From IMG/VR virus record IMGVR_UViG_3300032053_006388, positions 1 to 20,503 of that record: a stretch of DNA of 20,503 bases; one strand, given 5' to 3'. The stretch's first letter is position 1; every line of letters starts with the position of its first letter. Made by a program: the position numbers and the translations under genes. A model generated the notes under the pieces. The model ran no database searches. It had not been told where the DNA came from and saw nothing but the letters and a program-made list of their open reading frames with translations. The DNA is from a virus. Below are positions 6,001-20,503 of the stretch, one piece after another.

Positions 6001-8550
6001 TCTTGCAAATACATCTGAGTTAACTAAATTAGCTGCATGATCAAGTGTAATATATTTATTTAAAGGTGAAGTATTCCACCAGTTATTAGCCTTTTCTACA
6101 TCTTCAACAGTTACATCTCCGCTTAATTTTGCTGATCTATCTAAACCTTTAATATTTTGATTGAGTAATGATGCAGCTCTAGATATTTTACTAGTAGGTT
6201 TAATAGGGCTAGTAAGTATAATACGGTCTTCAAGTTCAGGTATAGTTTCTTTTTCTTCAGTTGCTATAACTTCTTGCTCTTCAATCTCATCTTCGAGTCT
6301 TGGAGTTTCTTGTTTTACACCATACTCAGTTTCTGCTAAGTTACCTAAATAAGCACCTTGTGTACCATTTTCATTTACTGCATATACTTGTACTACATCT
6401 GCTATAACTTGTCCTGTTTCAGTTGTTAATTCAGGTCTTAAAACTAATCTAACTAAGTTACCTACTGCAGGCCAAGTTGGATCTTGAAATGTTTTACCTT
6501 CTTTTGATATTAAAGCGGTTTTATTTTGAAAATAAACTTTTGCTTCTCCTTCAATACCTGGTACTGTAACATTAAAATTAGCATAATGAACTTTATAAAA
6601 TCCTTTTTTAATAGCTGTAACATCAGCATCTATTACTTCTCCAGATTCTTTTAATCTATTTACTATAGCATCTTTTAAATTTTTTGTATCAGATGCTGCA
6701 TCTTCTTTTAACTCTGCTTTAACTTTATCAACTTTAGCAAGTAACTGAGAAGGTAAAGCAAATTCCATATATGCATTAAACAAACCTGGATCAGAACTAT
6801 TAATACTAATTTCTGTATTTAAATTTTTAATAAATTCAATGTAATCCTTAAACTCAATACTATCAGATTCTTTGTCATATGTCATATAACGTTCATTCTT
6901 AAGTAGTTCAGAATTAAAATTCATCTTAGCAGGGTATCTTCTTGTATTACCCTTACCACTCATTAATACTTCATATATTCTTTGTGCATCATCAACTAAC
7001 TGTGCTTCAGTTTTATTATCAATAGATTCTTGAGATAGATTAATTGAGTTATCTAAAAAATTTCTTTGAGGTTGTTCTTGTGAGGTATCATTAGAATAGT
7101 TAAACCAAAATTCTTTATTCTCTAATTTACCTCCAGTTTCATGTCTTCTTGTTGTAGCTTGAAGATCATTACTAAAAAACTGTTTATAGAAATCAATTCT
7201 TTCTGAAAAACTAATATTCTTATTTGTTAATACTTGTGCTACTTGCAAAGCTATTTCTTTAGGTACATCAGCTCTATCTATAATACACTCATTACCATCT
7301 AACAATATACTTGCAAAGCCTTTCTTGAATACTCCTCTACTTTGTTGAATAGTTTTTATAGTCTTAAAAGTATTTCTGTTAACACCGGATAATTGTGATA
7401 TTTTATTTAAAGATATTTTATTACCAAATGATTCAGGTAATCCAGAACTTATTCCTAAAAAAGGTAATAGTACAGGTTGTTTATCAGCTAATACCTTTTC
7501 TTTAAATTCATATATTTTTTTAAAGTCCTCTTGTTGTTCTGTCTTAATTAAGTTATAATACTCATTAAAAGACATACCTAGTTCTCTACTATAACTTTTA
7601 GTAGCAATCTCATAAGGATCTTGTATTTGATCTTCTTTACCGTATATATCAGTTACAGTATAACTGTCCCCTTTTTTTCTAGCATCTCTTAAAAATTGAT
7701 AAACTAATTTACCTCCTTCGTCTTTAGAACTTATACCACCTTCTGAATTAAAATATATAGGTGCACCTAAATTATTTGATATTACTAAAGCTACTATATT
7801 ATCTGTAGGTGTAACTCCTGCAGCATTACTATTTTGTTTAGCAATAGATCTAGATTTTATAATTAAGTTTCTAGTGTAAGTATCTAAATCTGTTTGAGCT
7901 ATACTAGATAAAGGTACAGCCTTAAGTTTAAGACTAACTCCTTCATATATTAAATCATTAGCTATTGTTTGTTGTGGATTAAGTACAGCTCTAATAGCAT
8001 TAAGCGTAGTATAAATTATTTTTTTAGATTCTTCAACTTGTTCTACATCCGCAATATTTTTTGACGTAGGATCTACTGCTAAAAATTCTTGAAATGTACT
8101 TGTAAAAGAACTATATGGTTTTAATCTTTCACTAAAAAAACCTGGTGCAGGATCAAATTCTTCAATATTAAAAGCTTCATCTGACTTTGTTTCCGCTAAA
8201 CCTTTGAGAGCTTCTCCACTAACTACATTATTGTATGTACTAATGATTGTTTGTATACCTTTATCCGGATGTAAAAAAGATTGTCCTAATTTATGAATAG
8301 ATCTTAAATCTACAAAATCTTCAATTTCAAAAAAATCTGTATTGGCTATATCAATAATCATTCTTGGTATATGCTGAACAATTTTTGCAGCAATTTCTGG
8401 AGTAGATACCTCAGCTTTACCATTAAAAATATGTTTTATATACTTAGTTACATCAAAGTTACTATTCTTTAATGCCGCATCTTGCATATGGCCATAAATG
8501 TTTTTATATAATTTCTCTACAGTTTCCGTAGAAAGGGCACAATTTATCAT
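1..8550 (-). CDS. Giant virion-packaged DNA-dependent RNA polymerase of crAss-like phage, with N-terminal metallopeptidase motif (3' end beyond window)
   Basis: The frame opens with ATG at 8550 (MINCALSTET) and runs 2850 codons to the left edge without a stop, so the C-terminus is missing. Residues 2485-2528 match the catalytic double-psi beta-barrel of multisubunit-type RNA polymerases: R2485-x-P-x-Q followed 35 residues later by GSDFDVDKLY, with D2524, D2526 and D2528 as the Mg-binding triad. K2161 (MHKFALAPL) and K2199 (SGSKVG) are candidate lysines of the partner barrel. About 240 residues after the loop comes a segment (GVPREEAIYFVANPLVREY) resembling what I recall from crAss-like polymerases. 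Further upstream, H880-E-A-W-H884 with EEMIAED at 924-930 looks like a gluzincin-type metallopeptidase, preceded by an acidic linker near 750-776. Such polymerases are packaged in the virion and transcribe early phage genes. The start lies 10 nt after the previous stop, so the gene is probably co-transcribed. The polymerase call is strong; the protease call is moderate. Confidence 0.93.
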   Translation of the reverse strand, partial: MINCALSTETVEKLYKNIYGHMQDAALKNSNFDVTKYIKHIFNGKAEVSTPEIAAKIVQHIPRMIIDIANTDFFEIEDFVDLRSIHKLGQSFLHPDKGIQTIISTYNNVVSGEALKGLAETKSDEAFNIEEFDPAPGFFSERLKPYSSFTSTFQEFLAVDPTSKNIADVEQVEESKKIIYTTLNAIRAVLNPQQTIANDLIYEGVSLKLKAVPLSSIAQTDLDTYTRNLIIKSRSIAKQNSNAAGVTPTDNIVALVISNNLGAPIYFNSEGGISSKDEGGKLVYQFLRDARKKGDSYTVTDIYGKEDQIQDPYEIATKSYSRELGMSFNEYYNLIKTEQQEDFKKIYEFKEKVLADKQPVLLPFLGISSGLPESFGNKISLNKISQLSGVNRNTFKTIKTIQQSRGVFKKGFASILLDGNECIIDRADVPKEIALQVAQVLTNKNISFSERIDFYKQFFSNDLQATTRRHETGGKLENKEFWFNYSNDTSQEQPQRNFLDNSINLSQESIDNKTEAQLVDDAQRIYEVLMSGKGNTRRYPAKMNFNSELLKNERYMTYDKESDSIEFKDYIEFIKNLNTEISINSSDPGLFNAYMEFALPSQLLAKVDKVKAELKEDAASDTKNLKDAIVNRLKESGEVIDADVTAIKKGFYKVHYANFNVTVPGIEGEAKVYFQNKTALISKEGKTFQDPTWPAVGNLVRLVLRPELTTETGQVIADVVQVYAVNENGTQGAYLGNLAETEYGVKQETPRLEDEIEEQEVIATEEKETIPELEDRIILTSPIKPTSKISRAASLLNQNIKGLDRSAKLSGDVTVEDVEKANNWWNTSPLNKYITLDHAANLVNSDVFARFTVTGATLIDPTILANISIYQKGSMVDVYHEAWHGFSQLYLTEKEKLKLYNDIREYKDKSGNTPYANKSFFEIEEMIAEDFRTYAKDPKTFKAKAPIQKTIFQKILDFLYKLFGGKTNTKDVVVGNYPASVTEMFDALYLASKDPSLLNNYSPSIDNVTWDLLNRGVEKVTDVEVDVLTKQEANLISNTIDSILSDYVDANHDARVSNGKAVTKSGTLVLLSNEKDEDGITNRSKAYGYVKAVLEDRLDDLNDELGVITDKSFSELTTIEDLENESIAIIRSKEGEDKYIFLNSQVENFNNLTPDIKQGERVKGEKYKGSIEIISDFYKHNNILVNDKNVNVIIVNDVRDAKAQFDNYIKGGSPDFTSIEIKEDGPVYKELTSEQETLLDNIRILQNTINNWGDEKSGVMKYHANNSRFDLIRQKFIDIDYGDEVFDENGDPVDETDISDGNDSAGIVDKSVGKKSAEQFAGKETLYIVKSLFKIIKGKTVNNKLGFKELVDFNKVWGILLREVGGVKNREVAFKKLVEASLTYAPELKQLVEKKLPDPTKIMHTSEFDVSAAFWQDLSLSDIAYSQLTAFPIKEMLLDEQTGYMEPTITGFTMEVIDASIEPSNIIRSFQNEFKVVQPEDNPFITKVDNITMLTKLTSLVKTFEDKNNPGFLNVNKSYDFARAIGIGLDDLNVIKKELKDNSEYYGLPYIYQIVKDLAEIQSNPFNASVDAQKTLKSFVMDPLALLKSKIPKGVIKSLGGDQVYQKNILDRLAGLQAQFGLETKGKGIFNAAGDMVFPFVQDFSISRKIDALNSIENLTDCWIKSEFKYMKYLNPKVSSFTNYSQILKSVFNYETGKINEGQKDRRHERYLDLTMVSGTQVAEFSEGTNTSDLDKSSKFLQEMHTMLKGGLQEFIRAAGKKTSLGVRVKGGLIKDKGKDSSLYVDIDMFNKEQTGELYTIDKIMIPYIASEFERIQKFKNNREEFKKYTGYNKRVGGTKEDPIYAGEVFTAFDKVLSKDTKVLLLSNDVVKGITENKNGLIGYVKQNKDLRDAIQKDIIQYFNEQVSDNLNNLTNAKYIDPSLIEKTGNSKLTEQEQEYMLVKAFTYNSWIHNFETVNLFIGDMSQFNHVKEELHKRNTGSQSGGRKFLTDEWAQNFINNTWNQKTYAAKLAKTLGAEYDRFSYDGTFNTAIIKDIDRPSVYLKDIEKGLRDDYELSLKNSGKTKKEIKEIIDENIKKDLKSYKEMNEADGAGYITIDGYRTLKKLENNWSDKQEALFQDIINDRVVTTSEIEEFFPVYKLQNYGELLNDTLAPVTSMHKFALAPLIPSEIKNSELDHLHKEMLRNNIQYVTYESGSKVGGITSNGIADEVFTDSTQTKLKDKLTFTDNIIALEYLKNVTEVNNKFKGKIPFPTQLRGLILDGLYEQGKLSYEKHAELAKEYHDDVANYTEFLKIELLHEIQWEYKDGRYQGEFTKLLSLVQKELSKRDMPEHLIKMIGVNPDGSLKTDLSLHLEADTIEKMLLSVINKRLIKQKVKGESLVQVPSTMYNGLWSNSPNLKKATEDDVKKWMGSNNLPFYKPGANGNTDAMKVAIALQGDFINILEVSFNGERIGTIDRLNEAIKDDNWLNTGDNRQLVTLSGARIPIQNLNSLEFAEIYHFLDPAAGNKIVVPTEIVAKAGSDFDVDKLYFMMPHISSRGTYIKSSKTNSQLSEELASLKGEQIKDKTTISAKSLLSKQRAALENKLIASTASLLAIPENYASLVRPNDTYLLKPIADKIQKYVTEYNRYNVAHGESERINPNDETKRTISPTTTLEIGYNLDKHEKNMMAKAALGIDAQDNKQHPIWNSIGAKMPATYQASKFDDAQQKSIEGVDEYQTRLLLRHNTMLNSNGERVISLSHRYDQENIRIADTRSHKMNGQLDAEKDAWVADIQADTETTPVLNYLMNAGVPREEAIYFVANPLVREYGMQQKLLKSTFSTIINKGPVNENFILYKSAEAVVDKYIPE
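967..981 (-). other. RNA polymerase catalytic loop DFDVD (DxDxD)
   Basis: This encodes residues D2524-F-D2526-V-D2528 of the giant frame, in the context AKAGSDFDVDKLYFM. Cellular beta-prime subunits have NADFDGD here. Crass-like vRNAPs keep the three aspartates but vary the fourth position. The upstream R2485-x-P also matches the cellular arrangement (NRAP about 35 residues before the loop), which makes a chance match unlikely. Confidence 0.92.
1954..2070 (-). other. Candidate second double-psi barrel lysine region of the vRNAP
   Basis: Residues 2161-2199 of the giant frame run from MHKFALAPLIPSE to ESGSKVGG. In two-barrel polymerases the barrel N-terminal to the DxDxD barrel supplies two active-site lysines. 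K2161 and K2199 are the best candidates by position and by the small-residue context around K2199. Eukaryotic RNA-silencing polymerases have an RPSxxKF-type motif in the comparable place. The assignment is by eye and the lysine spacing is longer than in QDE-1, so it is tentative. Confidence 0.45.
5740..5913 (-). other. HExxH metallopeptidase motif region inside the vRNAP chain
   Basis: HEAWH (residues 880-884, positions 5899-5913) follows a short hydrophobic stretch (SMVDVY) and is followed by GFSQLYLTEKEK. About 40 residues later EEMIAEDFRTY offers E925 or E929 as a third zinc ligand, the gluzincin arrangement. A helical stretch (FQKILDFLYKLFGG) comes soon after, as in metallopeptidase domains of phage polyvalent proteins. 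Possible roles are processing the giant proteins or attacking a host target; the sequence does not decide between them. Confidence 0.7.
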
Positions 8551-8560: not shown

Positions 8561-11500
8561 TTAACAATCTGATGTGGAGTCTTGGAATAAATCTTTATCT
8601 AAATCTTCAGTAGATTTACCTTTAGTTTCTGTTTTTAATTCATCTTTTCTTTGAGAATTTACTAAAAGGTCTTTTACATTATCTGATGATTCAGTAATTA
8701 AAACTTTTTCTTGAGCTGTAGGTTTAACAGTAGGTGTTTCTATATTATCCATAAGATTTTCTTTTAAAACAAATAGTTTATCAAGCTCATTAAAACTTAT
8801 AGTTTTTTGTCTAACCTTAGCTCCTATACTTTTTAATACTATTTTTTCTGTAGTATTATTAACTGAAACTACTGTTACTTCTGAACCTTGACTAGCAAAC
8901 TCATTTGCATTATTTTTACCCGTAAAGATAATTTCTTTTGCTATAAGTCTGTCACCAATTTGTAGGTTATTTTCAGTTAATTTAACAACTGCATTTTCAG
9001 CTAATTCTAATTCTCTTGTATCAACTAATTCTTGAAGAAGTGTAATATCAGTTAAACCTATTTTGTTTTGAGCAATAAGTATTGCAAACTTTTGTTTAAA
9101 CTGATTTAACTGTTCAGAAGTAGCTTCTCTAATAAACTTAACTAAACTAGGATCTAAACCTCTAGTTACTTCATCATTTGTTTGTTGTTGATCTGTAACA
9201 GCTGGTGATTCACCTTCTTCAGAAGTTTCTCTTTCAACTTCTTCTGGCGCTACTTCACCTTTTTTAGGTATAACAGAATCAATCTGTGCTACTTGTTCAG
9301 GAGTAGGATACAAAGGAATTCTATAATTACCTGGTTCTAGTAAAGTTTTTGATTTAGGTTTATTAGCTGAAGTAACTTTACCTGTTTCTTTATTGTAATC
9401 AATTTCAACAGGTAATATACTTATGTTAGCTTTAAGGCCAGTTAAATTAAATAACAAATTAGAGTATGCTAACTGTTGTAAAACATAACCAGGTTTTTGT
9501 GGAAACTTAGCATTTTCATTATTAAAGTTATTCCATTTACTAACCTTACCTGTTTTAACATCAATTATATATACTTTACCTGATCTATCAACAGCAAGTA
9601 AATCTACTTCACCTGCTACTTTAGCTTCTTTGTCATATAGAATTATACCGTTATCACCGTAACCTCTAGACATTATGTGAAGTCCTTTACTATCTATTAC
9701 TTTTTTAATACTTACTAAGTAACCTTCATTATCAGGATCTGTATTAAATAAATTGTCAAAAGCTTCTTGACTTATATTATCTTCATTAAATACATTAGGC
9801 TTGTTATCAAAAAGTAATCTTATCTGATTATCTAAATAATTACCAGCTATTCTAGAAGCTTCATTAGTTTTCTCAGCAACTAAATTAAGTACTGTATTTA
9901 ATAAATCTTGATTACTTGATTTTTTTTGGACAGTTCTTTTTAATTCAGATATTTGTTTTTCAATTTCTTCTACTCTAGTTTTATCTCCAAACTCTCCTTG
10001 TTCAGTAAGTAGATCTTGTTCTAATGATTCAATAGTTCTTTCTTGTACAGAAACATCTATATTATCCTGTAAAGCACCATAGATTTCCTTTAACTCTTTT
10101 TCTACTTCAGTATAAGTAAACTCACTAAATCCACTAAGACCTTTTTGTACACGTAAATTTTCAACAAAAGCTTTTATTGAATCTTTTGTTAAACCATCTT
10201 TTTGTATAGTACTGTTAAAACTAATTGTAATCTCATCAGCATTAACATGCTTATATTCTTCTTTAAATTGATTAATTACATTAGTAACTCTATCCATTGT
10301 AACACCATCAAGCTCATAACCTTTTGAGCTACGCTTAATTCTAGAGTTATCTTTAATTATTTGTTGTATAGCATTTATAGTTACTTTTTGTTCCGGAGAT
10401 AAATCTTCTTGAGATAATTTATCTAAATATTCATTTAATCTTATTATGAATAACTTATATTGACTGATTTTTAAATCATCTTCTGAAGTTTTATCTTCTT
10501 TTGCCTCAAGTTCTTTTAATCCTATCTCATGACTTTTTAAATAATTTCTCAATACAGATTCAGATAACTTGTCAGCACTAACTAATTCATTACCAATTAA
10601 TAATTTAGGTATTTCATAAGTTTCATCAGTTGCTTTTGTAGCCGTTTCTAATTGTTGATTTTTATTATATTCTTCAATTATACTAGCAGCTATATAATTA
10701 CTTCTAACAAAAGATTCAAAAGCAATATTATAATCATCTAACTCAGCAATGTTTAAACTATTATCAGCAGCATATTTTTCAAAAGCTGCTACTAACTCAT
10801 TATATACCTCTGGAGGCATACTATCTATATCTGTCTCATTGTTTATAGTAACCGGTTTTTCAAAAAAAGATTCAATATCTTGAGTACCCTTTTCTATACT
10901 TCTATCAATAACTTCTTGCTTTGCTTTAGTAAATTCTTCTTTAATAGCAGCAACTTCTTCCGCATTAGGTTCTTTAGTTATTGTATATTTAACTCCACTA
11001 GCAAATGTAGAAATACCATATAAAGCTCTAAAATTTTGCAGATCTATTTCAATACCATCAATATTATCTATTTTAAGTACATCACCATCTTTATAAAAAG
11101 TTAATCTTTCTATTTCTTCATCAACAGTAGCAATAGTATCAGCGTATTCTCCGGTTAATAAATCTTGGTTAAGTTCATTTATTGTCATATTAGTAAACCC
11201 ACTTAGTTCATTTCTTGTATCAAACTTATCTAGTGCATTAAGTCTAGCTTCTTGCATCTTATCTAATTCATCTAACTCAGCTTGAACAGCTTCACTGTTA
11301 ATTTCACTACTAGATTTTTTATTTCTGATACTTGCAATAAATACAAAAGGTGCTATAATTTCATCATAATCAGGATGAGATTTTTTAATAACAGTTTTGT
11401 TTACATCATTGAAAATTTCTTCAGGTGTAATTCCAAATTGTTGCCACATTTGAAAATCATCTAAGCTAATGTATAAACCTCTACTAGCTAAACCATTTAA

Positions 11501-14497
11501 TAAATCATTGTCTTCTTTTTTATTAAACTCTTGATCTTTTAAAGCTTCATAATATTCTCTACGGTTATCATATATATTTTTCATCCAGACTTTGTTTTTC
11601 TGAACGTGCTCAACAAAGTCTTTAGGATTATGTAAAAGATTTATATTTTCTACAAGTACTTGAGACTCATGTTGTAAAGTGTGAAAGTCAATTAGTTTTT
11701 CAAAAGCTTCATCAGTAGCTTTATTAAATAAAGGTTGATTAGATTCTTTAGCAATAACTTTTAAGTATGCATTATAACTAATTTCTAATTCATCTTTTTG
11801 TTCAGCAACTACTTCATCATATTCTTTATCTAATTCTTCAGGAGAGATACCTGGATTTTCTTCTTTTAGTTTGTCAAGTATTTGTTTTTTATTTCTTGTA
11901 AATTTTGTATAAGATTCTAAAGCTTCTTTATAATTTTTAAGAGCTTCTAATTTTTTAGTTTTAAAATTAATTTTACTTGTGTTTTCTGAAGTTTTAGGTA
12001 AACTATTTAACCCTTCTAATTCAGTCTTAATCATATCTACTTCATTAGCTAATCTTTTATTATCAAATAAAACATTAATATCTTCAAAACTAGCTTTTTT
12101 AAGTGGCCCATTAGATGTAACATCTTGTACAATACTGGACATTCTTTCCATTGTATTATCAAAAGACTCATTTAAGAATACTGCATTACCAATAGCTACA
12201 TTCCATGCATGATGAGTTGTCACTGCATCATTATAATCCGGACTATTTTTATTTTTAGTAGCTTCTTCTAGATTAATAGGATTAGGAAAATTCTTTTTGT
12301 AATAATTATGTTTCTCCTCTATTCTATCAATTTTACTAATTACAGCATCTAGCTTTTCTAAATACTTAGCACCTTCTCCTGGAGGTACACTTGGTACAGC
12401 CTCTTCAAATTCTTCAGGTGTTAAATCTTTATATGACTCTAATGTCTCTGTGTAATGATGTAATACATCATTTTCTGTAGCTCTTATTATAGCTTTATTA
12501 AAAGAAGCATCAGCGGCATCTCGTGATTCTTTTTCAGTACCTGTTAATCTTACTGTTTCCGCTTCTGCTTGCATACCTAATCCAATAGCATTAGCATTCC
12601 AGAAGTCAGCCATATCTACATTACTTAGTTCATTAACTAAGTTTTTACCATAAGTATCTCTTATTGCAGCATATTCACCAAACTCTTTAGGATTTTTAAT
12701 TTTATTATATCCTATATTTAATAAATGAGGTACTCCATTTAATGGTGCAGCAAACATACCCATTACAAAACCTGACGCAAATGTTTCAAAACCTTGTCCG
12801 GTAAATTGATTCTTTACTGCAGATTTAGTAAGCCCCATTGCATAATCATATGTAGCTAACTTATCATTTGAAAAAGAATCAACATAATAACTTTCTGTTG
12901 CTGAAGCAATTACATCCTGTGCATTTTCTTGTAATGCTTCAGTTAAGTTCTTTTTAAAATATGAAATACCTCCAGCTACACTTTTTCTAATAGGATCTTT
13001 AGCAAATGATTTAAGTGTATTACTTAAATTATTTTTTCTCCAATTCAATTCAGGAGTTAATACTTTTTTACCACTCTTTAAAGTTTGTTTAGTTGTAGTT
13101 CTAGCAATACTACCTCCTTTTAAATCTAAAATATCTTTTGTTTTAGCAGATAAAAAATTAGTACCTCTACCTTTAACACCTACAAGATTATCTAATACAA
13201 TTTTATTAGACATAAATATTAATGCAGTATTCCATTGTAATGTAGTTACACCAGCTTGTTTAGCTTGATTCATCATGTTTTGCTGCATTTCATCTGAAGG
13301 CGCTTCTTTATGTTCATTATAATAACTATTATATAACTTATTATAAACATCATTCTGCTTCATTCCCCCCTCTAATCTAGCTTCAGACAAGGCCATGTTA
13401 ATACCTCTTATTTCACCATAGAATCCACCAACAGTTTTTCTACCAGCATCTGCTAATCTAGCTAAACCTGTTAAGTTATTTTCATTTTTAGCAATCTTAA
13501 GAGCTGCATCTGATAAATGTTCTAAAGGATTAAAAAACTTTACTGCTGAATTATTTAAACCTTTTTCTATTTTAGATAGGTCCCAAAATTTTCTTGCAGA
13601 ACTAACATTGTCAAGACCTCGCACTGTAGCATTTACAGCACGCATTCCATCAGTAGCTGCATCTAATCCTTTAATACCTCTTAATAAATTTTTTCCTGCA
13701 TTAGCTGTTGTTGCAAATAAAGCGGGTGCTGCTCCACCACCTGTAACTGCTGTTGCTCCAATAGCTACAGCTTCTTCAAGTACAGCTTCTGTTATAATAC
13801 CTGCAGTATAAGCAAAACTCATTGCAGTATTATTTAAGAATCCACCTACACCACCTTTAGAAGAATTACCAATAGCAGCTGCTCTAGAATAAAATGCAGC
13901 ATCTTCTGTATCAGCTGAAAAATCTCCTTGAAGCATTTTACCTAAACTTTTTGGACCTGATACAAAACCTCTTGTAAATAATGGCCAAAAAGAATGAGTC
14001 ATCATTCTTTTAGTATCTTGCCATCCAGATGTACCTGCATTAAATATAGCTTCATTATCTCTATAAGGATGGAAACCTATTTTATCAAAAGTTTCTTGTC
14101 CATATGCTTTATATCTATCATAAAAAGCATTGCCGTCTGGACCTGCATTATATGAATACATCCTTGCATATTCATTCTTATCTTGATTAGCTTGATTATG
14201 AGCTAAAATTTCTTGCTTTAAACCAGCAGCAAAAACATCTACATTTGTACGTTTAGGTGATGCAGGTTTAGTAGCTGGGTTACCAACAATGTTTCTTATG
14301 GAATGTTGTTGATTAGTTAATTCATTTGCACCAGGCATCATAGGTGTAAAATGATCTGGGAAATCAGGGGATGGCATAGATAATCTATCTCCTTCAAAAG
14401 CAGATAAACTTTTAGTATTTAAATCTGGTGCATCTATTCCACCATAACCAGATCCTAATGAATCTAGTGAATTAAAAGGTACATCTGATTCTGCCAT
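8561..14497 (-). CDS. Large virion cargo/ejection protein with PD-(D/E)XK nuclease domain
   Basis: This 1978-residue protein has several distinct regions. Residues 1-80 are Pro/Ser/Gly-rich and probably flexible. Residues 130-180 carry a block (TFDKIGFHPYRDNEA, then W and RM) that I recall as recurring in large crAss-like virion proteins. Residues 225-266 and about 560-600 are hydrophobic, Ala/Gly-rich and membrane-like, with a shorter one near 425-440. Residues 620-1500 are charged and mostly helical, with likely coiled coils. Residues 1610-1690 form a PD-(D/E)XK nuclease core: GEVD (E1630, D1632), DVKTG (D1646, K1648) and QQLAY (Q1674, Q1675). An acidic linker near 1750 precedes a small beta-rich C-terminal domain. 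The start overlaps the previous stop as TAATG. It is probably packaged and ejected with the vRNAP. The nuclease call is good; the ejection role is inferred from size and neighbours. Confidence 0.85.
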   Translation of the reverse strand: MAESDVPFNSLDSLGSGYGGIDAPDLNTKSLSAFEGDRLSMPSPDFPDHFTPMMPGANELTNQQHSIRNIVGNPATKPASPKRTNVDVFAAGLKQEILAHNQANQDKNEYARMYSYNAGPDGNAFYDRYKAYGQETFDKIGFHPYRDNEAIFNAGTSGWQDTKRMMTHSFWPLFTRGFVSGPKSLGKMLQGDFSADTEDAAFYSRAAAIGNSSKGGVGGFLNNTAMSFAYTAGIITEAVLEEAVAIGATAVTGGGAAPALFATTANAGKNLLRGIKGLDAATDGMRAVNATVRGLDNVSSARKFWDLSKIEKGLNNSAVKFFNPLEHLSDAALKIAKNENNLTGLARLADAGRKTVGGFYGEIRGINMALSEARLEGGMKQNDVYNKLYNSYYNEHKEAPSDEMQQNMMNQAKQAGVTTLQWNTALIFMSNKIVLDNLVGVKGRGTNFLSAKTKDILDLKGGSIARTTTKQTLKSGKKVLTPELNWRKNNLSNTLKSFAKDPIRKSVAGGISYFKKNLTEALQENAQDVIASATESYYVDSFSNDKLATYDYAMGLTKSAVKNQFTGQGFETFASGFVMGMFAAPLNGVPHLLNIGYNKIKNPKEFGEYAAIRDTYGKNLVNELSNVDMADFWNANAIGLGMQAEAETVRLTGTEKESRDAADASFNKAIIRATENDVLHHYTETLESYKDLTPEEFEEAVPSVPPGEGAKYLEKLDAVISKIDRIEEKHNYYKKNFPNPINLEEATKNKNSPDYNDAVTTHHAWNVAIGNAVFLNESFDNTMERMSSIVQDVTSNGPLKKASFEDINVLFDNKRLANEVDMIKTELEGLNSLPKTSENTSKINFKTKKLEALKNYKEALESYTKFTRNKKQILDKLKEENPGISPEELDKEYDEVVAEQKDELEISYNAYLKVIAKESNQPLFNKATDEAFEKLIDFHTLQHESQVLVENINLLHNPKDFVEHVQKNKVWMKNIYDNRREYYEALKDQEFNKKEDNDLLNGLASRGLYISLDDFQMWQQFGITPEEIFNDVNKTVIKKSHPDYDEIIAPFVFIASIRNKKSSSEINSEAVQAELDELDKMQEARLNALDKFDTRNELSGFTNMTINELNQDLLTGEYADTIATVDEEIERLTFYKDGDVLKIDNIDGIEIDLQNFRALYGISTFASGVKYTITKEPNAEEVAAIKEEFTKAKQEVIDRSIEKGTQDIESFFEKPVTINNETDIDSMPPEVYNELVAAFEKYAADNSLNIAELDDYNIAFESFVRSNYIAASIIEEYNKNQQLETATKATDETYEIPKLLIGNELVSADKLSESVLRNYLKSHEIGLKELEAKEDKTSEDDLKISQYKLFIIRLNEYLDKLSQEDLSPEQKVTINAIQQIIKDNSRIKRSSKGYELDGVTMDRVTNVINQFKEEYKHVNADEITISFNSTIQKDGLTKDSIKAFVENLRVQKGLSGFSEFTYTEVEKELKEIYGALQDNIDVSVQERTIESLEQDLLTEQGEFGDKTRVEEIEKQISELKRTVQKKSSNQDLLNTVLNLVAEKTNEASRIAGNYLDNQIRLLFDNKPNVFNEDNISQEAFDNLFNTDPDNEGYLVSIKKVIDSKGLHIMSRGYGDNGIILYDKEAKVAGEVDLLAVDRSGKVYIIDVKTGKVSKWNNFNNENAKFPQKPGYVLQQLAYSNLLFNLTGLKANISILPVEIDYNKETGKVTSANKPKSKTLLEPGNYRIPLYPTPEQVAQIDSVIPKKGEVAPEEVERETSEEGESPAVTDQQQTNDEVTRGLDPSLVKFIREATSEQLNQFKQKFAILIAQNKIGLTDITLLQELVDTRELELAENAVVKLTENNLQIGDRLIAKEIIFTGKNNANEFASQGSEVTVVSVNNTTEKIVLKSIGAKVRQKTISFNELDKLFVLKENLMDNIETPTVKPTAQEKVLITESSDNVKDLLVNSQRKDELKTETKGKSTEDLDKDLFQDSTSDC
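9428..9670 (-). other. PD-(D/E)XK (RecB/Cas4-like) nuclease core
   Basis: Residues 1610-1690 of the 1978-residue protein show the three motifs in order. A strand ends in GEVDLLAVD (D1632), the next strand is VYIIDVKTGK (D1646, K1648), and a helix starts QQLAYSNLL (Q1674/Q1675, Y1678). The DVKTG and Q-x-x-x-Y pattern is typical of the RecB and Cas4 branch of the superfamily. All catalytic positions are present, so the domain is probably active. No cysteine cluster of the Cas4 iron-sulfur type is seen beside it. Confidence 0.8.
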
Positions 14498-14499
14498 TA
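14495..14499 (-). promoter_or_regulatory. TAATG stop/start overlap
   Basis: The TAA of the 1023-residue gene shares one base with the ATG of the 1978-residue gene. This is a termination-reinitiation arrangement and would keep the two large proteins in a linked ratio. Confidence 0.8.
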
Positions 14500-17400
14500 T
14501 CTTCCTGAATTGTGTTGAGTTACTTTATTAGCTACCTCTATACTATGTAATTTTGCTTTACTTAAGTTATTACCTTGAGTAGTCATATTATCATATATAG
14601 TATAATCATTATATGTATTTGTTTCATGATCTAAAAGGCTATAGTTTGTTTCTAAGTTATAATCACCTGTACCTGTAGTATTTTTAGTAACATTAAATGA
14701 AGTTTTTTGATCCATTGATTTCCATTGGTAACCATTAGGATTAGATTCTACAATAGCTGCAATAGGATCTAAATAACTAGATGTAAACAAACCATTAGAC
14801 CAATTCTTAGAATCAGAAACAACACTTATCCCATTAGTTAATATATCATTATAATCTGTTTCTGCATTAAGTAACCCTGCACCGTCTTTACTTTTTATAT
14901 AATTAGCTAACCATTCAGCATCAGGATAAATAATCATAGCTCCTTTATCTGCATTACCACCAGCAATAACTTGACTACTCATCTTAAAGTTTTTATATTT
15001 ACTCTTAGTATCATTCATTGATAAGATTATATCATTAAGCATTCTTTTACCAGATTGTGTTTGCTGATATCTAATATCTTTATCATCGCTTAAGTTGGTA
15101 CCATTAAAACTAATACCTGATGTAGCAAAATCTAATTTTCTAAAATCTCTTTCAAATTCATGAAAATAAGCATTTCCTTTTGTACCAAAAGCTAATGGAG
15201 CAACATTAATTGATTGTCTTCCCGGTGTAAATAAACCACTAGCAGTCATATCACCTAAACCACTTTGTGAAAGTCCTGGTATAGCTGTAGGTGTTTTTAT
15301 AGTTGAAGATTTCCAAGCTTTACCAGCTGCACTTAATAAAGCTTCATAACCTCCTGCTTCTTTTTTAGCTTCTTCAATTTTTCTTTTATATGCTTCACGC
15401 TGAGCAACTGGTAAATGAGCAAGTGCCTTAGCAAGATCTGCTGGAGCTGTATTCACAGTAGTTGTAGCTAGTGCTATTTTAGATATTTCTTTAATACCTG
15501 TCCAAGTTTTATCAAAAGAAAAATGTGTAAGATAATCTACTGCAGCTTTGTTTGCTTTGTTATTTATAGCTTCTCTACTTTCTTTAGAAAGAACTTTCAT
15601 AAATTCATCTTCACTTCTTAAAGTACCATCTGGTCTATATAAAAATTGAGCATTTTTAAGACCTTGGTTTGTAAGATTTTGTTCAACTTGCTTTGCACCA
15701 TCAATTCTCCACTTTTTATCTGCTTCAAGATAACCAGTATAATCTTTAAAATTAGAAGATGCTTTTGTGTAACCTGGATGACTTTGTTTTGTAATAAGAC
15801 TTACACTTTTATTATTATCTATCCAATAATCTAATTTTTTAGAAATCCAAAATAAACTATTTGCACCAACAGTACCTTTTAAAAAAGCATCGGCATTACC
15901 TGATAAACCTGCTTTAAATTTAGCACGAGTCATATTTTTATCTTTTTCAGTATGTAATGTCTTATCTGCTTGTGCTTCAGTCATTACACCTTCTTTTACA
16001 GCTTTATCCAATAATGCTAAAGCTTCTTGCATATAAGGTACACCATAAGTATTAGTTTGTCTACTTGAAATATTTCTACTTAATTGGGCCATGCTAATTT
16101 CTCCTGATGCAATTCCTTTATCTTCAAATTCTGTAAAAATATTATCATAAGATTCATTTTTAACAACTTGATTAAAAGTAGGATTTGGTATTTTATTACC
16201 ATTTGCGTCTTCAATAAATTCTTGAGAATCATAATGTGCAGCTCCTGTAGATAAATCCCATTTGTCTTGAGCTCTTTTATCTGCAGCTCTAATTTGTGCA
16301 GCAGCTACTTTTTCTCTACTTGCATTACTAGAAGCAACTTCTTGCATTCTATATGAATGATTTTGAGCACTTACCGCAAATGGATCAGCTACAATACTTT
16401 GTTTAGCATCTCTAAATGCAAATATTTGAGCTGACTCATCAAGATCTTTTTCCATTAATGATGATGCTAATGCATTATCTACTTTCCATCTTAAGGATTT
16501 AATGTCACCATAAGGATTTTCAGATCCTGTAGATGTTGTTGCAGTACCTTGTCTATCCTGCATAGCATCAACATCTACTTTTACTCTATTAAGTACATCA
16601 TCATTTATTTGTTTACCGTATTCTAAGTTAGCTAAAGCTTTTGGTAAATCCGGATTTTTATCACCTGAATTAATTTGTTTTTGGATATCTCTAATTCTGC
16701 CATCATAAGAAACTGAATCATCTCTTAAAGATTCATAACGCATTGTTTGTTGCTGTTTTAATCTATTAAAATTAGTTTCTAAATAATTCATTTCAGCAGC
16801 ATTTTTATCACCACCAAATTGAGCAGCATTAGAAGCAGCAAAGTTTTTTCTATCTACATATGCTTGTGTCTTATAAACTTCTTGAATAGCTGGATCATTA
16901 CCTAACTGAGATTCAAGTAACTTACTAAGAGGTTCCATTAACTGTTTACCATTTTTAGTAGTAACCATGTATCTACCATCAGGACTCCACTTAACAGTTT
17001 CCATAGATAAACCAGCTTCTTTAGTTATCTGTAATGCTTTTTCTTGTACATTAACATAGTTAGTATATTTAGCATTTGATATACCTAAAGTATCTGCAAT
17101 TGCGGATTCTTTAAATTCTTCTCTTTGATAATCTAAAGCAGCTACACCATCTGCCCAATAAAGAGCACGGGTTTTTTCATCTAATGAATTTTTAAGACCT
17201 TCTGCTCTATTTCTTTGTGCAGTATAATTTTTTGTAAAGGCCATATCTTTCATAAGATATTGATCTTCATAAAAAGGTTTAAATACTTGAGTAGCTTGAG
17301 TTACATTTTTTTCTAATGATAAATCTAGACCTGATACTTTTTTAAGAGTCACATCTATATTTTTTAAAAGTTCTTCTTTTCTTTGAATATTATCTTCATG

Positions 17401-17568
17401 AGTTAAATCTGCATAAAGGTATTGTCCATAAACTTGATTTAATTGTTTATAGTTACTATCATATTGTGTCTGCTTTGTTTGCAGTACATTATTATAGAAA
17501 TTTAAATCCGGTTGAAAAGGTTGAAACTGAGGTATATAATCTGTTACGCCCTGGAGATAAGTACTCAT
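14497..17568 (-). CDS. Probable virion cargo protein of crAss-like phage
   Basis: The product is 1023 residues, soluble-looking and largely helical, with no signal peptide, no membrane segment and no catalytic motif that I can recognise. The N-terminus (MSTYLQGVTDYIPQFQPF, then PDLNFYNNVLQTKQTQYD) matches what I recall of a family that precedes the polymerase-module proteins in crAss-like genomes. Residues 20-180 are rich in Gln, Lys and Glu with likely coiled coil. The C-terminal third is richer in Thr, Asn, Gly and aromatic residues and probably beta-containing. Its position between a structural protein and the nuclease/vRNAP proteins suggests that it is packed in the capsid and ejected. 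Its start overlaps the endonuclease stop (TAATG). The first codons CTC, CAG and GGC are unusual for this AT-rich gene. The family call rests on context and remembered similarity. Confidence 0.75.
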   Translation of the reverse strand: MSTYLQGVTDYIPQFQPFQPDLNFYNNVLQTKQTQYDSNYKQLNQVYGQYLYADLTHEDNIQRKEELLKNIDVTLKKVSGLDLSLEKNVTQATQVFKPFYEDQYLMKDMAFTKNYTAQRNRAEGLKNSLDEKTRALYWADGVAALDYQREEFKESAIADTLGISNAKYTNYVNVQEKALQITKEAGLSMETVKWSPDGRYMVTTKNGKQLMEPLSKLLESQLGNDPAIQEVYKTQAYVDRKNFAASNAAQFGGDKNAAEMNYLETNFNRLKQQQTMRYESLRDDSVSYDGRIRDIQKQINSGDKNPDLPKALANLEYGKQINDDVLNRVKVDVDAMQDRQGTATTSTGSENPYGDIKSLRWKVDNALASSLMEKDLDESAQIFAFRDAKQSIVADPFAVSAQNHSYRMQEVASSNASREKVAAAQIRAADKRAQDKWDLSTGAAHYDSQEFIEDANGNKIPNPTFNQVVKNESYDNIFTEFEDKGIASGEISMAQLSRNISSRQTNTYGVPYMQEALALLDKAVKEGVMTEAQADKTLHTEKDKNMTRAKFKAGLSGNADAFLKGTVGANSLFWISKKLDYWIDNNKSVSLITKQSHPGYTKASSNFKDYTGYLEADKKWRIDGAKQVEQNLTNQGLKNAQFLYRPDGTLRSEDEFMKVLSKESREAINNKANKAAVDYLTHFSFDKTWTGIKEISKIALATTTVNTAPADLAKALAHLPVAQREAYKRKIEEAKKEAGGYEALLSAAGKAWKSSTIKTPTAIPGLSQSGLGDMTASGLFTPGRQSINVAPLAFGTKGNAYFHEFERDFRKLDFATSGISFNGTNLSDDKDIRYQQTQSGKRMLNDIILSMNDTKSKYKNFKMSSQVIAGGNADKGAMIIYPDAEWLANYIKSKDGAGLLNAETDYNDILTNGISVVSDSKNWSNGLFTSSYLDPIAAIVESNPNGYQWKSMDQKTSFNVTKNTTGTGDYNLETNYSLLDHETNTYNDYTIYDNMTTQGNNLSKAKLHSIEVANKVTQHNSGR
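17542..17568 (-). repeat. Diverged copy of cargo-gene start (downstream copy)
   Basis: The first nine codons of the cargo gene encode MSTYLQGVT. The same stretch in the upstream endonuclease encodes MATYLQSVS: six of nine residues are identical and two more are conservative, with 16 of 27 bases the same. The downstream copy uses GC-richer codons (CTC CAG GGC) than the upstream one (TTA CAA TCA). Confidence 0.6.
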
Positions 17569-17570
17569 TA
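17566..17570 (-). promoter_or_regulatory. TAATG stop/start overlap at endonuclease/cargo junction
   Basis: The endonuclease TAA shares one base with the cargo-gene ATG. The bases before it (AATTTACTTA) hold no Shine-Dalgarno core, so translation of the cargo gene may depend on ribosomes finishing the endonuclease. Confidence 0.75.
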
Positions 17571-18209
17571 TAAGTAAATTAAATTAGTAGTGTTTTTTCT
17601 TTTTCCTGAAATACGTCTTGATAATTCATATTTAGGAATATTTAAAGTATTTGCAGCAATTGCTAAAGATTCATATACTTTACCTGTAATTATATTTTTT
17701 ATAGATTTTCTTTTATGTGCATTAACAATATTAAAATCTACATTTTTTAATTTTTTTCTAGCTTTTGCTAAATTTAGTTTGCATTCTTCTGATGCATTGT
17801 ATATTTTACCAGCTTCAATACATGCTAAAGAAGGCTTTTTACCTTTATTAGCAATTCTTAATTTTTCTTTTGTCTCTTCAGAATGAATAGAATAACTATT
17901 AGGATCTGTAGGTTTTAAATTATAACCAATAGATCTATCTAAACAATTAAGTTCATTAACCCAGTAGTGTTCTTTAGCATGTAGATTAGTTATATCGCAT
18001 TTTTCAATCATCTCAAAAATAAAGTTTTTTTCACCATATTTAGTCCATGCTTTTTGTAAATAACTGTTTTTATGTCTATCTCTTCTTAAAGCATAGAGGT
18101 GACCATTTATTCTAGTTCTTATGTTAGAAGCACAACCAATATATATTTTACCACTAATTATATTAGTAATCTTATATATACCTGATACTGATTGTAAATA
18201 TGTTGCCAT
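17568..18209 (-). CDS. Free-standing GIY-YIG homing endonuclease with NUMOD-type DNA-binding motifs
   Basis: The product is 213 residues. The N-terminal nuclease has GIY (10-12) and YIG (23-25). By eye alignment with I-TevI, R33, H37, E80 (in KEHYWV) and N97 (in GYN) match its R27, H31, E75 and N90, so the enzyme should be active. A NUMOD3-like segment (HSEETKEKLRIANKGKKPS) lies near 109-127 and a NUMOD1/helix-turn-helix-like segment (ITGKVYESLAIAANTLNIP, then SRRISGK) near 170-203; both bind DNA in this family. It would cut an allele lacking the gene and spread by repair. It sits between two virion genes, after a 63-nt AT-rich gap and overlapping the next gene by one base. Its first nine residues copy the start of that next gene, which suggests captured initiation sequence. 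No intron or intein signs surround it. Confidence 0.95.
   Translation of the reverse strand: MATYLQSVSGIYKITNIISGKIYIGCASNIRTRINGHLYALRRDRHKNSYLQKAWTKYGEKNFIFEMIEKCDITNLHAKEHYWVNELNCLDRSIGYNLKPTDPNSYSIHSEETKEKLRIANKGKKPSLACIEAGKIYNASEECKLNLAKARKKLKNVDFNIVNAHKRKSIKNIITGKVYESLAIAANTLNIPKYELSRRISGKRKNTTNLIYL
18183..18209 (-). repeat. Diverged copy of cargo-gene start (upstream copy, in endonuclease)
   Basis: The first nine codons of the endonuclease encode MATYLQSVS, immediately before the GIY motif. This extension is not part of the GIY-YIG fold and matches the start of the cargo gene at 17568. It may be a relic of that gene's original start. Confidence 0.6.
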
Positions 18210-18272
18210 AATTAATGTTTATCTATATTGTAAATATATTAAAATCTTATAAGTTTATTAAACATATAAAGT
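18210..18272 (-). promoter_or_regulatory. AT-rich intergenic gap with a weak candidate promoter for the endonuclease
   Basis: This is the only gap of any size in the window. TATATTTA at 18231-18238 on the minus strand resembles the Bacteroidota -7 box (TAnnTTTG) except in the last base, about 20 nt before the ATG. I see no TTTG -33 box. AAGTTTA occurs twice as a direct repeat (18251-18257 and 18269-18275), and TAAAC/GTTTA can form only short 5-bp stems, too weak for a convincing terminator. Confidence 0.25.
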
Positions 18273-20503
18273 TTAATAGAACATAAATGGAAATACATCT
18301 GATCCCATTACATAACCAGAAGTATGTGCACCACCATTTTTTGATTCAGCATTTTGCATGATCTTATCCATATTGAGAGTAGATTGTGTTTGTGAACTCA
18401 TTGCAGCTTTAGCAGCTGCCGTAGCTTGTTCTACACTAAAACCTTGTCCTATATACTTTTGTAATAAACTATCAAAAGTTGCTCCTGGAACTTCTCCAGT
18501 TAACTCTTTACCACCTTCAAACCATAAATTACCTGTTCTAGCATCTATATCATATTGTGGATATAATCCATTAGTTAAAGCCAAGTTAGATGCATTCTTC
18601 CAACCCGTACCAAATGCTTGTCTTACATTTTGATCAGCTGCAATTTTTGCATTATCAAATTGTTGATTAGCCATTGTATTCTGATCATATAATCTTTGAG
18701 CCGCACCTTGATTTATACCTTGAGCTTGATTTCTAGTATTAGCTGCATTTTGAGTAAACGTATTGGCTATATCAACATTAGCATTGTTATATTTAGATAA
18801 TGTATTAGCAGCTTGTTCTGCTCCTGTACCTTGTATACTTGACATATTAGATGCAAAAGCTTGAGGTCCACTAAACTGTCCTAATTGTTGCGCCATTAAA
18901 TTAGCATATTCACTTTGTTGAGCTAAGTCTCTTGTTGGATCTAAATATGTTGGATCTGGAACTTCTGGTTCAAATCTTGGAGCCCAAGGCATATACTTTT
19001 TAATTCTTGATTTATCTTTAAGTGCACCATAATAATTTAACTTATCAGGAGTCATCCATTCAGCTTGACGTAACTCAGGAGCTTCTTCAAAATCAGGAGT
19101 ATATTCATCAGCTCTTTTAATAGCTCCTGCTTTTATTTCTTCAGGTGTTAATTTAATACCATCAGCAGCTGCTTCTTTCATAACATATTTATTATACATT
19201 TCCGGATTTGTTTCATCATGCCAATACTTATCACCATTCTGATCAATAGATCCTTCTTTTTTCATTTGAGCTTCATAGTCAGCTTTATTTAATTTTACTG
19301 TTTGTGTATCTAAAGCACGGTACCACCATTCATCATCTTTATAACCAGCACTAATATCAGCAGCTGAAACCTTACCTGCTTTTAAAGCATCTACAATATC
19401 TTGATTTGTTTTTACTGTAATACCTTTTTTCTTTAATGTAGCTTTTACTGCATTACTAGGTTGGTGACTTACATTTTGTATGTAGTCAGCTACTAATTCA
19501 GGATTACTTTCAAGAATTTTTTGTTGCATTTCTCCTGCAGCTTTTTTAATATCAGCTTCAGTAAGAGGTTTACCTTTTCCTCCAATAGGTTCTAAACCAT
19601 ATTTATCTCTATAGAAGTTTAATCTAACTACTGACTCTGCATTAGTGTAAGCTTCTTTCATACCATAAGGGGTTCCTCCTGATTGTAATTTAGGCATACT
19701 ACCTCCTCTAGCATATTCTTGAGGTACTTTCTCATAATCTGTATATTCAGGATATACGTATCCCGGATTAAATGGAGCTGATTCTGAATTCATTTCATAA
19801 CCATATTGACCCATTGGCATAGCAATAGGTTCACCATTAGGCATTTGTTGTGGAGCTTCCATCATCTCTTCTTGAGGATTTTGTTCCATACCTTGTTCCA
19901 TTCCCTCTTCTTGAGGAGATTGTTGTTGAGCTAATTCTGGAATTAAATCTTCATCTGCTATATTATTAGCTTCCATATATGGCCTAGCTACTTCAGGTAT
20001 ACCTTGAGGAAAACCTTTTTTAGCTTCTTGTGCTACAGCAAGGGCTCCTAATTTCATAGTATAATTACGGATCATAATCTCTGCAGTCTTTCTTTCTAAA
20101 GTACTTGAGTTAGGATCTTGTAATAATTTTCTATATTTACTTAAGTCATATTGTTTAGCTAATGTAGCTGGTGTATATGATTTAGTATCTTTTACACTTT
20201 TACCAAATTGAGCTAATATTTTAGGATCCTTAAGCATCATTGATTTAGTATCACTAAAGATAAAAGTATCATCTGGAAGATTTAATGGTACACCTCCTGA
20301 AGAATGTCTAGGTCCTTTAATAGTAAGGTGTTCTGCCATACCATCACCATTAATGTCACCATAAACAGTTTCCCCTCCTTCAGCTTCTAAATTAGCTTCA
20401 TCTCTAGGTACAGCTGAAATAGTATTAGCTACACTAATATTTTTAGGTCCACTACTCATATCTGCTCCACCCCAACTAAGAGATTGGTTAGGTGCTATTT
20501 GAT
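18273..20503 (-). CDS. Structural/cargo protein of crAss-like phage (5' end probably beyond window)
   Basis: From the in-window ATG at 20459 the product is 728 residues, but the frame stays open to the right edge (IAPNQSLSWGGAD before MSSGPKN). I recall family members having such a lead, so the true start probably lies outside. Residues 20-75 (EAEGGETVYGD, INGDG, GPRHSSGGVPLNLP, FIFSD) are the most conserved-looking block. D35-x-N-x-D-G resembles a calcium-binding loop. Residues 175-210 are Gln/Glu/Met-rich low complexity, followed by ARGGSMPKLQSGG (250-262). The middle is charged and helical. Residues about 560-690 are Ala/Gln/Asn-rich and probably coiled coil, and the end is aromatic (VFPFMFY). 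No enzyme motif is seen. As the first gene of the visible block, it probably belongs to the virion. GGAG lies 5 nt before the internal ATG, so a start there cannot be excluded. Confidence 0.75.
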   Translation of the reverse strand, partial: QIAPNQSLSWGGADMSSGPKNISVANTISAVPRDEANLEAEGGETVYGDINGDGMAEHLTIKGPRHSSGGVPLNLPDDTFIFSDTKSMMLKDPKILAQFGKSVKDTKSYTPATLAKQYDLSKYRKLLQDPNSSTLERKTAEIMIRNYTMKLGALAVAQEAKKGFPQGIPEVARPYMEANNIADEDLIPELAQQQSPQEEGMEQGMEQNPQEEMMEAPQQMPNGEPIAMPMGQYGYEMNSESAPFNPGYVYPEYTDYEKVPQEYARGGSMPKLQSGGTPYGMKEAYTNAESVVRLNFYRDKYGLEPIGGKGKPLTEADIKKAAGEMQQKILESNPELVADYIQNVSHQPSNAVKATLKKKGITVKTNQDIVDALKAGKVSAADISAGYKDDEWWYRALDTQTVKLNKADYEAQMKKEGSIDQNGDKYWHDETNPEMYNKYVMKEAAADGIKLTPEEIKAGAIKRADEYTPDFEEAPELRQAEWMTPDKLNYYGALKDKSRIKKYMPWAPRFEPEVPDPTYLDPTRDLAQQSEYANLMAQQLGQFSGPQAFASNMSSIQGTGAEQAANTLSKYNNANVDIANTFTQNAANTRNQAQGINQGAAQRLYDQNTMANQQFDNAKIAADQNVRQAFGTGWKNASNLALTNGLYPQYDIDARTGNLWFEGGKELTGEVPGATFDSLLQKYIGQGFSVEQATAAAKAAMSSQTQSTLNMDKIMQNAESKNGGAHTSGYVMGSDVFPFMFY
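19838..19935 (-). repeat. Gln/Glu/Met-rich low-complexity coding stretch
   Basis: Residues 175-207 of the right-edge protein are built almost only from Q, E, M, P and G, with an imperfect GMEQ-GMEQ duplication and a later QEEMMEAPQQM. This probably forms a disordered linker between the conserved N-terminal block and the helical body, and is likely to vary in length between relatives. Confidence 0.5.

Follow-up and report, generated by a model that had tools for sequence, protein, structure and literature searches.

Mobile endonuclease elements that bring along part of the gene they interrupt are known from fungal mitochondria, in which mORFs located in atp6, atp9, cox2 and nad3 of Allomyces and Glomus/Rhizophagus carry a divergent copy of the displaced C-terminus (PMC3630166). 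In phage T4, the free-standing seg and mob endonucleases are GIY-YIG or HNH genes that lie between phage genes in the same transcriptional direction, and several of them are promoter-less cassettes that use upstream host promoters (PMC2988022). The same review covers intergenic insertion as well as gene splitting, with mobE in nrdA and mobA in gene 60 as examples, but capture of a neighbour's start codon together with a carried, recoded start is not described for these endonucleases in its relevant sections. The open-licence literature searched yielded no account of a phage homing gene that captures a start at the 5' end, and a published analysis of nuclease genes at the boundaries of exchange in phages (PMC10448857) does not mention the term "start codon". 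Purely by analogy, engineered home-and-rescue gene drives may be added, in which a nuclease element placed in an important gene brings a working copy of the part it breaks (PMC7968924); these are synthetic CRISPR systems in animals without homology to the phage element discussed here.

The locus in question lies in a 20,503-nucleotide stretch of viral DNA (the whole of which is referred to as the window; IMG/VR record IMGVR_UViG_3300032053_006388, positions 1 to 20,503). Its features, in the order in which they are read, are as follows:

18273..20459, minus strand: upstream virion-operon gene (728 aa), an open reading frame that ends right before the leader
18210..18272, minus strand: 63-bp leader that belongs to the downstream gene and has been captured by the endonuclease; matches the leader of endonuclease-free relatives
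18230..18256, minus strand: conserved promoter-like block AAACTTATAAGATTTTAATATATTTAC within the leader, single copy in the window
18192..18209, minus strand: captured native first six codons (MATYLQ), now the endonuclease start; 18-nt match to the native start in empty sisters
17568..18209, minus strand: GIY-YIG homing endonuclease open reading frame (213 aa), assigned by Pfam, PHROG and I-TevI fold
17542..17568, minus strand: recoded "rebuilt" start (ATGAGTACTTATCTCCAGGGCGTAACA, codons 1-9) of the target gene, brought in by the element; differs from native starts
14497..17568, minus strand: interrupted and rescued target gene, an open reading frame for a putative virion cargo protein (1023 aa)
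8561..14497, minus strand: next operon gene, open reading frame (1978 aa)
1..8550, minus strand: giant open reading frame homologous to the crAss-like virion RNA polymerase subunit (tblastn), running off the window

The giant reading frame matches g066 of Cellulophaga phage phi14:2, annotated as "Catalytic RNA polymerase subunit", as well as cr108_1 and other crAss-like phages in tblastn searches. As g066 is an example of the crAss-like virion RNA polymerase subunit, the window is assigned to a Crassvirales-type phage, the criterion for membership, which is fulfilled, being homology to this polymerase gene within the virion operon. The 728-aa upstream gene has a 72% homologue and conserved gene order in a 92-kb relative and weaker homologues in the L012, L028, L177 and L183 contigs, while a PDB search with its product gave no match at a meaningful E-value. 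Homologues of the 1023-aa target gene are present at every empty and occupied locus, but its product has no match in Pfam, PHROGs, the PDB or named phages. A role as virion cargo, as proposed in an initial annotation, is plausible from the location of the gene next to those of the virion RNA polymerase.

The endonuclease (18209..17568, minus strand) begins MATYLQSVS, its reading frame starting MATYLQSVSGIYKIT, and the target protein (17568..14497, minus strand) begins MSTYLQGVT, its reading frame starting MSTYLQGVTDYIP, with the target-gene ATG overlapping the endonuclease stop codon as TAATG. A GIY-YIG domain (Pfam PF01541) is recognized above cut-off at residues 10-87 (E 5e-8), in line with a PHROG homing endonuclease match (E 1e-32) and with likeness to I-TevI on the level of profile (E 1e-13, the alignment to 1mk0 beginning at residue 8) and structure (Foldseek E 2e-6, fold match to 1mk0). 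Residues Y12, Y23, R33, H37, E80 and N97 are invariant across the family, so that the criterion for a GIY-YIG homing endonuclease, i.e. the catalytic fold plus the GIY...YIG, R, H, E and N motifs, is met. As in I-TevI from the td intron of phage T4, the catalytic domain is followed by a separate DNA-binding part; unlike I-TevI, however, the enzyme is not intron-borne and has a different C-terminal half, and in I-TevI the domain starts at residue 2 without a MATYLQ tail. No intron is required because endonuclease and target gene are both read through directly, and occupied and empty alleles occur at one site among relatives outside of introns and inteins, which satisfies the definition of a free-standing phage homing endonuclease of the seg/mob kind. 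Within the family, two C-terminal versions exist, one of 213 aa ending in NTNLIYL and one of 211 aa ending in TTFKY[IL], which sit on an alike catalytic half (window 17568-17840; alignment A2 columns 125-214), as would result from a swap of the DNA-binding end.

The initial annotation had pointed out that endonuclease and target protein share six of their first nine residues, that such agreement is unlikely by chance and that a GIY-YIG fold does not need the lead peptide. The first two statements held. When residues 2-9 were compared for 794 distinct adjacent gene pairs from all fetched loci, every pair with at least five identities belonged to this endonuclease family except one (L192), and chance similarity was rejected, as this is the only pair among ~780 outside the family that equals it. 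In this exceptional pair (L192:5679-6091), the adjacent genes start MKYLKLFEN and MKYLKTFEN and are perhaps tandem paralogues. The third statement is consistent with the GIY-YIG region starting at residue 10 and with residues 1-6 forming a low-confidence tail without confident structure in the AlphaFold model (pLDDT <50). Two scans of viral contigs afforded 22 full-length or near-full-length family members including the window (19 distinct), all of which start M[AS]T[YF][LI]Q and, with the exception of L026, where the contig is too short, are directly followed by a homologue of the 1023-aa gene. In GIY-YIG relatives located elsewhere, the residues that precede the GIY motif are unrelated, and none of these relatives starts with MATYLQ; such starts at unrelated loci had been named in the initial annotation as a possible refutation, and their absence thus supports it. 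Among such genes, those in L043, L044, L047 and L048 share a long in-frame extension, RQSAAKPLSNEEGSTTIPEGSTG.., upstream of the catalytic domain. No relatives of the endonuclease were found in the bacterial genomes searched. All comparison loci are metagenomic contigs, and no activity has been shown.

When the first 80 residues encoded by the 1023-aa gene were used as query, 66 loci (50 distinct) that lack the endonuclease were identified. At these empty loci, the same leader lies directly 5' of MATYLQGVTDYIP, for example followed immediately by the start ATGGCAACGTATTTACAAGGTGTCACA (MATYLQGVT). The leader of these relatives corresponds to 18210-18272 of the window and not to 17570-17600, and their genes start MATYLQ.., which is the outcome that the idea of an insertion within the first codons had called for. 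The 30 nt before the rebuilt ATG are unlike the leader, with 18-22 mismatches of 30. The leader block AAACTTnnAAnATTTTAATAnnTTTAC is found once in the window and once in the 92-kb relative, in both cases ahead of the endonuclease, and zero chance copies of the block at 18230-18256 are expected in the window. A TAnnTTTA motif is located 12-31 nt before the ATG in 50/50 distinct empty loci. This Bacteroidota-like element within the leader block may point toward a gene-specific promoter, although this remains no more than a possibility.

The left junction can be read from sister pairs of occupied and empty loci. Both members of L008/L135, L018/L133, L019/L161, L170/L131 and L023/L165 have the same 30 bases at the end of the leader, and the endonuclease opens with the six native codons of the sister (0-1 mismatches), after which similarity stops. 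Leader and first six codons are likewise identical or nearly so in L016/L140 and L021/L153, followed by an abrupt loss of homology. Across 14 occupied/empty pairs, the first 18 nt show 16/252 mismatches, where random native starts would give ~40 (P<5e-5). Since conservation is also seen among the native starts, the 18-nt identity is of limited power in any single pair; the window's own nearest empty locus, L091, differs from the first 18 nt of the endonuclease at two positions. The capture claim rests on the sister-pair test, because the Mantel correlation between leader and captured codons is only suggestive (r 0.25, P 0.07). The junction mostly falls after codon 6, and after codon 7 in L018, L026 and L177. 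L023 and L024 are instructive in that endonuclease codons 7-211 (0/615), leader (0/60) and rebuilt start are identical, yet the captured codons differ at 4/18 positions. Together with the relatives at other loci, this comparison led to rejection of MATYLQ as an ancestral part of the endonuclease. In none of the 22 members is an ATG, GTG or TTG present at codons 2-12, and the element hence lacks a start of its own. The insertion point, the capture of leader and six codons and the missing start are thus established at the sequence level.

Alternatively, MATYLQ could be a functional tag that the endonuclease has kept, such as a packaging or ejection signal of virion cargo. This would be compatible with the conservation of residues 1-6 in every family member and with the position of the target gene beside virion RNA polymerase genes. 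However, the nucleotide match to the native codons of each recipient explains the peptide without invoking a function, endonuclease residues 7-9 do not follow GVT, and HNH endonucleases at the same site (see below) lack the MATYLQ peptide. We therefore consider a tag highly improbable and favor start capture.

At the right junction, the rebuilt start and the empty sister disagree over codons 2 to 8 or 9, beyond which the sister sequence resumes. The changes are largely silent, with 42 of the 47 changed codons being synonymous. Rebuilt and native starts differ at 75/234 positions, and native starts differ from one another by a mean of 3.05/18; rebuilt starts are thus further from native starts than these are from each other. 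In Mantel tests, the rebuilt start was correlated with the body of the endonuclease (r 0.38, P 0.001), whereas no correlation existed with the remainder of the target gene (r -0.03). Moreover, ATGAGT starts were found in 8/9 members of the 213-aa endonuclease clade and in 0/8 of the other (Fisher P ~4e-4, our own arithmetic). The rebuilt start follows the endonuclease and not the recipient; therefore, the element brings its own recoded start.

A competing scenario would be local duplication, i.e. the insertion duplicated the recipient start (target-site duplication) and the two copies then drifted. It would yield a pair of similar starts at a distance of 640 bp with no need for a carried sequence. 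It is, however, difficult to reconcile with leader and captured codons that are still identical to the sister while the rebuilt start already differs at 5-7/18 nt and rejoins at codon 9-10, nor would it predict that the rebuilt start tracks the endonuclease clade instead of the recipient. Duplication is thus largely refuted and retains very little credibility beside an element-borne start. With regard to the initial annotation, insertion within the first codons, with the old leader and codons kept as initiation signal of the endonuclease, was borne out by the sister pairs. The rebuilt start left downstream was confirmed only in part, as it is carried by the element and recoded and did not grow in place. 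The second endonuclease and the hypervariable island described below go beyond what had been claimed.

The similarities of endonuclease and target protein between loci are discordant. Relative to the window, the endonuclease is 82% identical in L008, 72% in L012 and 63% in L020, while the target protein is 37%, 28% and 72% identical, respectively. Such discordance does not result from vertical descent alone and demonstrates horizontal movement. An unrelated HNH endonuclease was detected directly before the same target gene at five loci (L003/L090/L243, L244, L245, L246 and L123/L247), with a size of ~160-165 aa, or 258 aa in L246:

L090:3501-3998, L123:3504-3998, and also in L244-L246: HNH endonuclease

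The native leader precedes the HNH endonuclease in L090 and L123, and ATGGCAA is reused in L244 and L247. In 4/5 of these loci, the target gene after the HNH endonuclease starts MATY[IL]QN[IV]TD, and the N at residue 7 is absent from all 50 distinct empty loci. As HNH and GIY-YIG enzymes are both present at one gene start with rebuilt starts, two unrelated nucleases have converged on one site and on a similar solution.

The reading that best accommodates these data, and that we regard as highly probable, is a homing cassette with start capture and a recoded rescue start, in which endonuclease activity and the loss cycle are inferred. In this model, a mobile endonuclease cassette sits within the target gene, between its codons 6 and 7. 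The left end of the cassette, which lacks a start codon, uses the leader and the MATYLQ codons of the recipient in frame to begin the endonuclease, and the right end provides the recoded first eight to nine target codons directly after the endonuclease stop (TAATG or a 2-nt gap). Owing to this carried start, the target protein would still be made whole, presumably via re-initiation at TAATG, which is likewise an inference. For spread, the endonuclease may cut the uninterrupted gene start of a co-infecting relative, and repair would then copy the cassette in. This cleavage, its target and the self-copying are inferred, with the discordant similarities of endonuclease and target gene as the only, indirect, support. 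The recoded start should in turn protect the occupied allele from renewed cutting, and the cassette may be lost by recombination between the two start copies, leaving an intact, recoded and presumably resistant start; neither immunity nor loss is more than inferred.

The proposed loss by recombination fits a hypervariable island in endonuclease-free phages of the window's clade:

L095, L098, L102, L105, L107 and L122 (gene start at 4001), codons 2-9: 24-nt island

Among 12 such phages, codons 2-9 differ by 33% on average, the leader by 9% and codons 10-39 by 7%. In 18 pairs with near-identical flanks, 150/432 positions (34.7%) differ in codons 2-9, 17/720 (2.4%) in the leader and 36/1620 (2.2%) in codons 10-39 (sums by our own arithmetic; the pairs are not independent). 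The island itself, with ~15-fold more divergence at exactly codons 2-9 than in the flanks, is directly evident. Codons 2-9 are not inherently variable, because another clade shows the opposite pattern, with these codons among the least variable parts (7% vs 14%). The start of L098 is 2/27 from the rebuilt start of the window and 7/27 from the nearest native start of other clades, and that of L102 is 3/27 from the rebuilt start of L023, while the island alleles of L122 and L107 resemble no known rebuilt start. We infer that the island represents scars of lost elements or recoded resistant alleles, with mutagenic repair or coconversion not excluded. In the window's clade, 450 bp surrounding the start are near-identical; an earlier idea that they form a conversion tract was dropped, since a similar gradient occurs in another clade.

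The island could also have arisen from error-prone repair or from selection for target-site resistance instead of element loss. Such an origin is possible: raised diversity at homing sites has been reported for mitochondrial mobile introns, for which conversion or mutagenic repair has been proposed (PMC5378118), and some island alleles match no known rebuilt start. On the other hand, the L098 and L102 starts are close to the rebuilt starts of the window and L023, respectively, and 5-14 changes per block with almost unchanged flanks suggest replacement in a single event. Plain horizontal exchange of short tracts is a further conceivable competitor of the scar interpretation. If the latter is nevertheless followed, a bolder proposal can be formulated as one joint claim, namely a natural cut-and-rescue homing cycle in phages, in which GIY-YIG and HNH cassettes repeatedly invade one virion-gene start, swap starts, carry a cleavage-proof rescue and leave resistant recoded scars upon loss. 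We would give this claim an even chance of proving right; if true, the scars would explain why variation in a region that is otherwise near-identical peaks at this handful of codons.

Compared to the systems introduced above, the phage element resembles the mORFs in that an endonuclease element in a protein gene carries a divergent, largely synonymous copy of the severed gene end and thereby makes a hybrid gene. The mORF criterion of a diverged and largely synonymous copy of the displaced part is met (codons 2-9), but that of a carried C-terminus is not, as it is the N-terminus here; the element thus works like a mORF without being classed as one. In mORFs, it is the 3' end that the element carries, with the native end pushed downstream, whereas the phage element carries the 5' end and, unlike mORFs, reuses the displaced native start as the start of its own endonuclease. 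It further differs by its location in a phage operon, by its GIY-YIG and HNH enzymes and by the absence of introns. Start capture with recoded rescue may hence be regarded as the 5' mirror of those elements in fungal mitochondria that bring along the 3' end of a gene, a version apparently undescribed in phages as far as the open-licence literature searched is concerned.

Taken together, the locus shows how a free-standing homing gene can occupy a virion-operon gene without intron or intein, by taking the start and returning a recoded one. At this single phage locus, two endonuclease families that are unrelated to each other represent the 5' counterpart of the mitochondrial C-terminal carriers. 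Its naturally occurring alleles, whether occupied, empty or recoded, are ready material for studies of cleavage immunity, start capture and loss, and the same alleles can serve to study homing resistance in wild virus populations.
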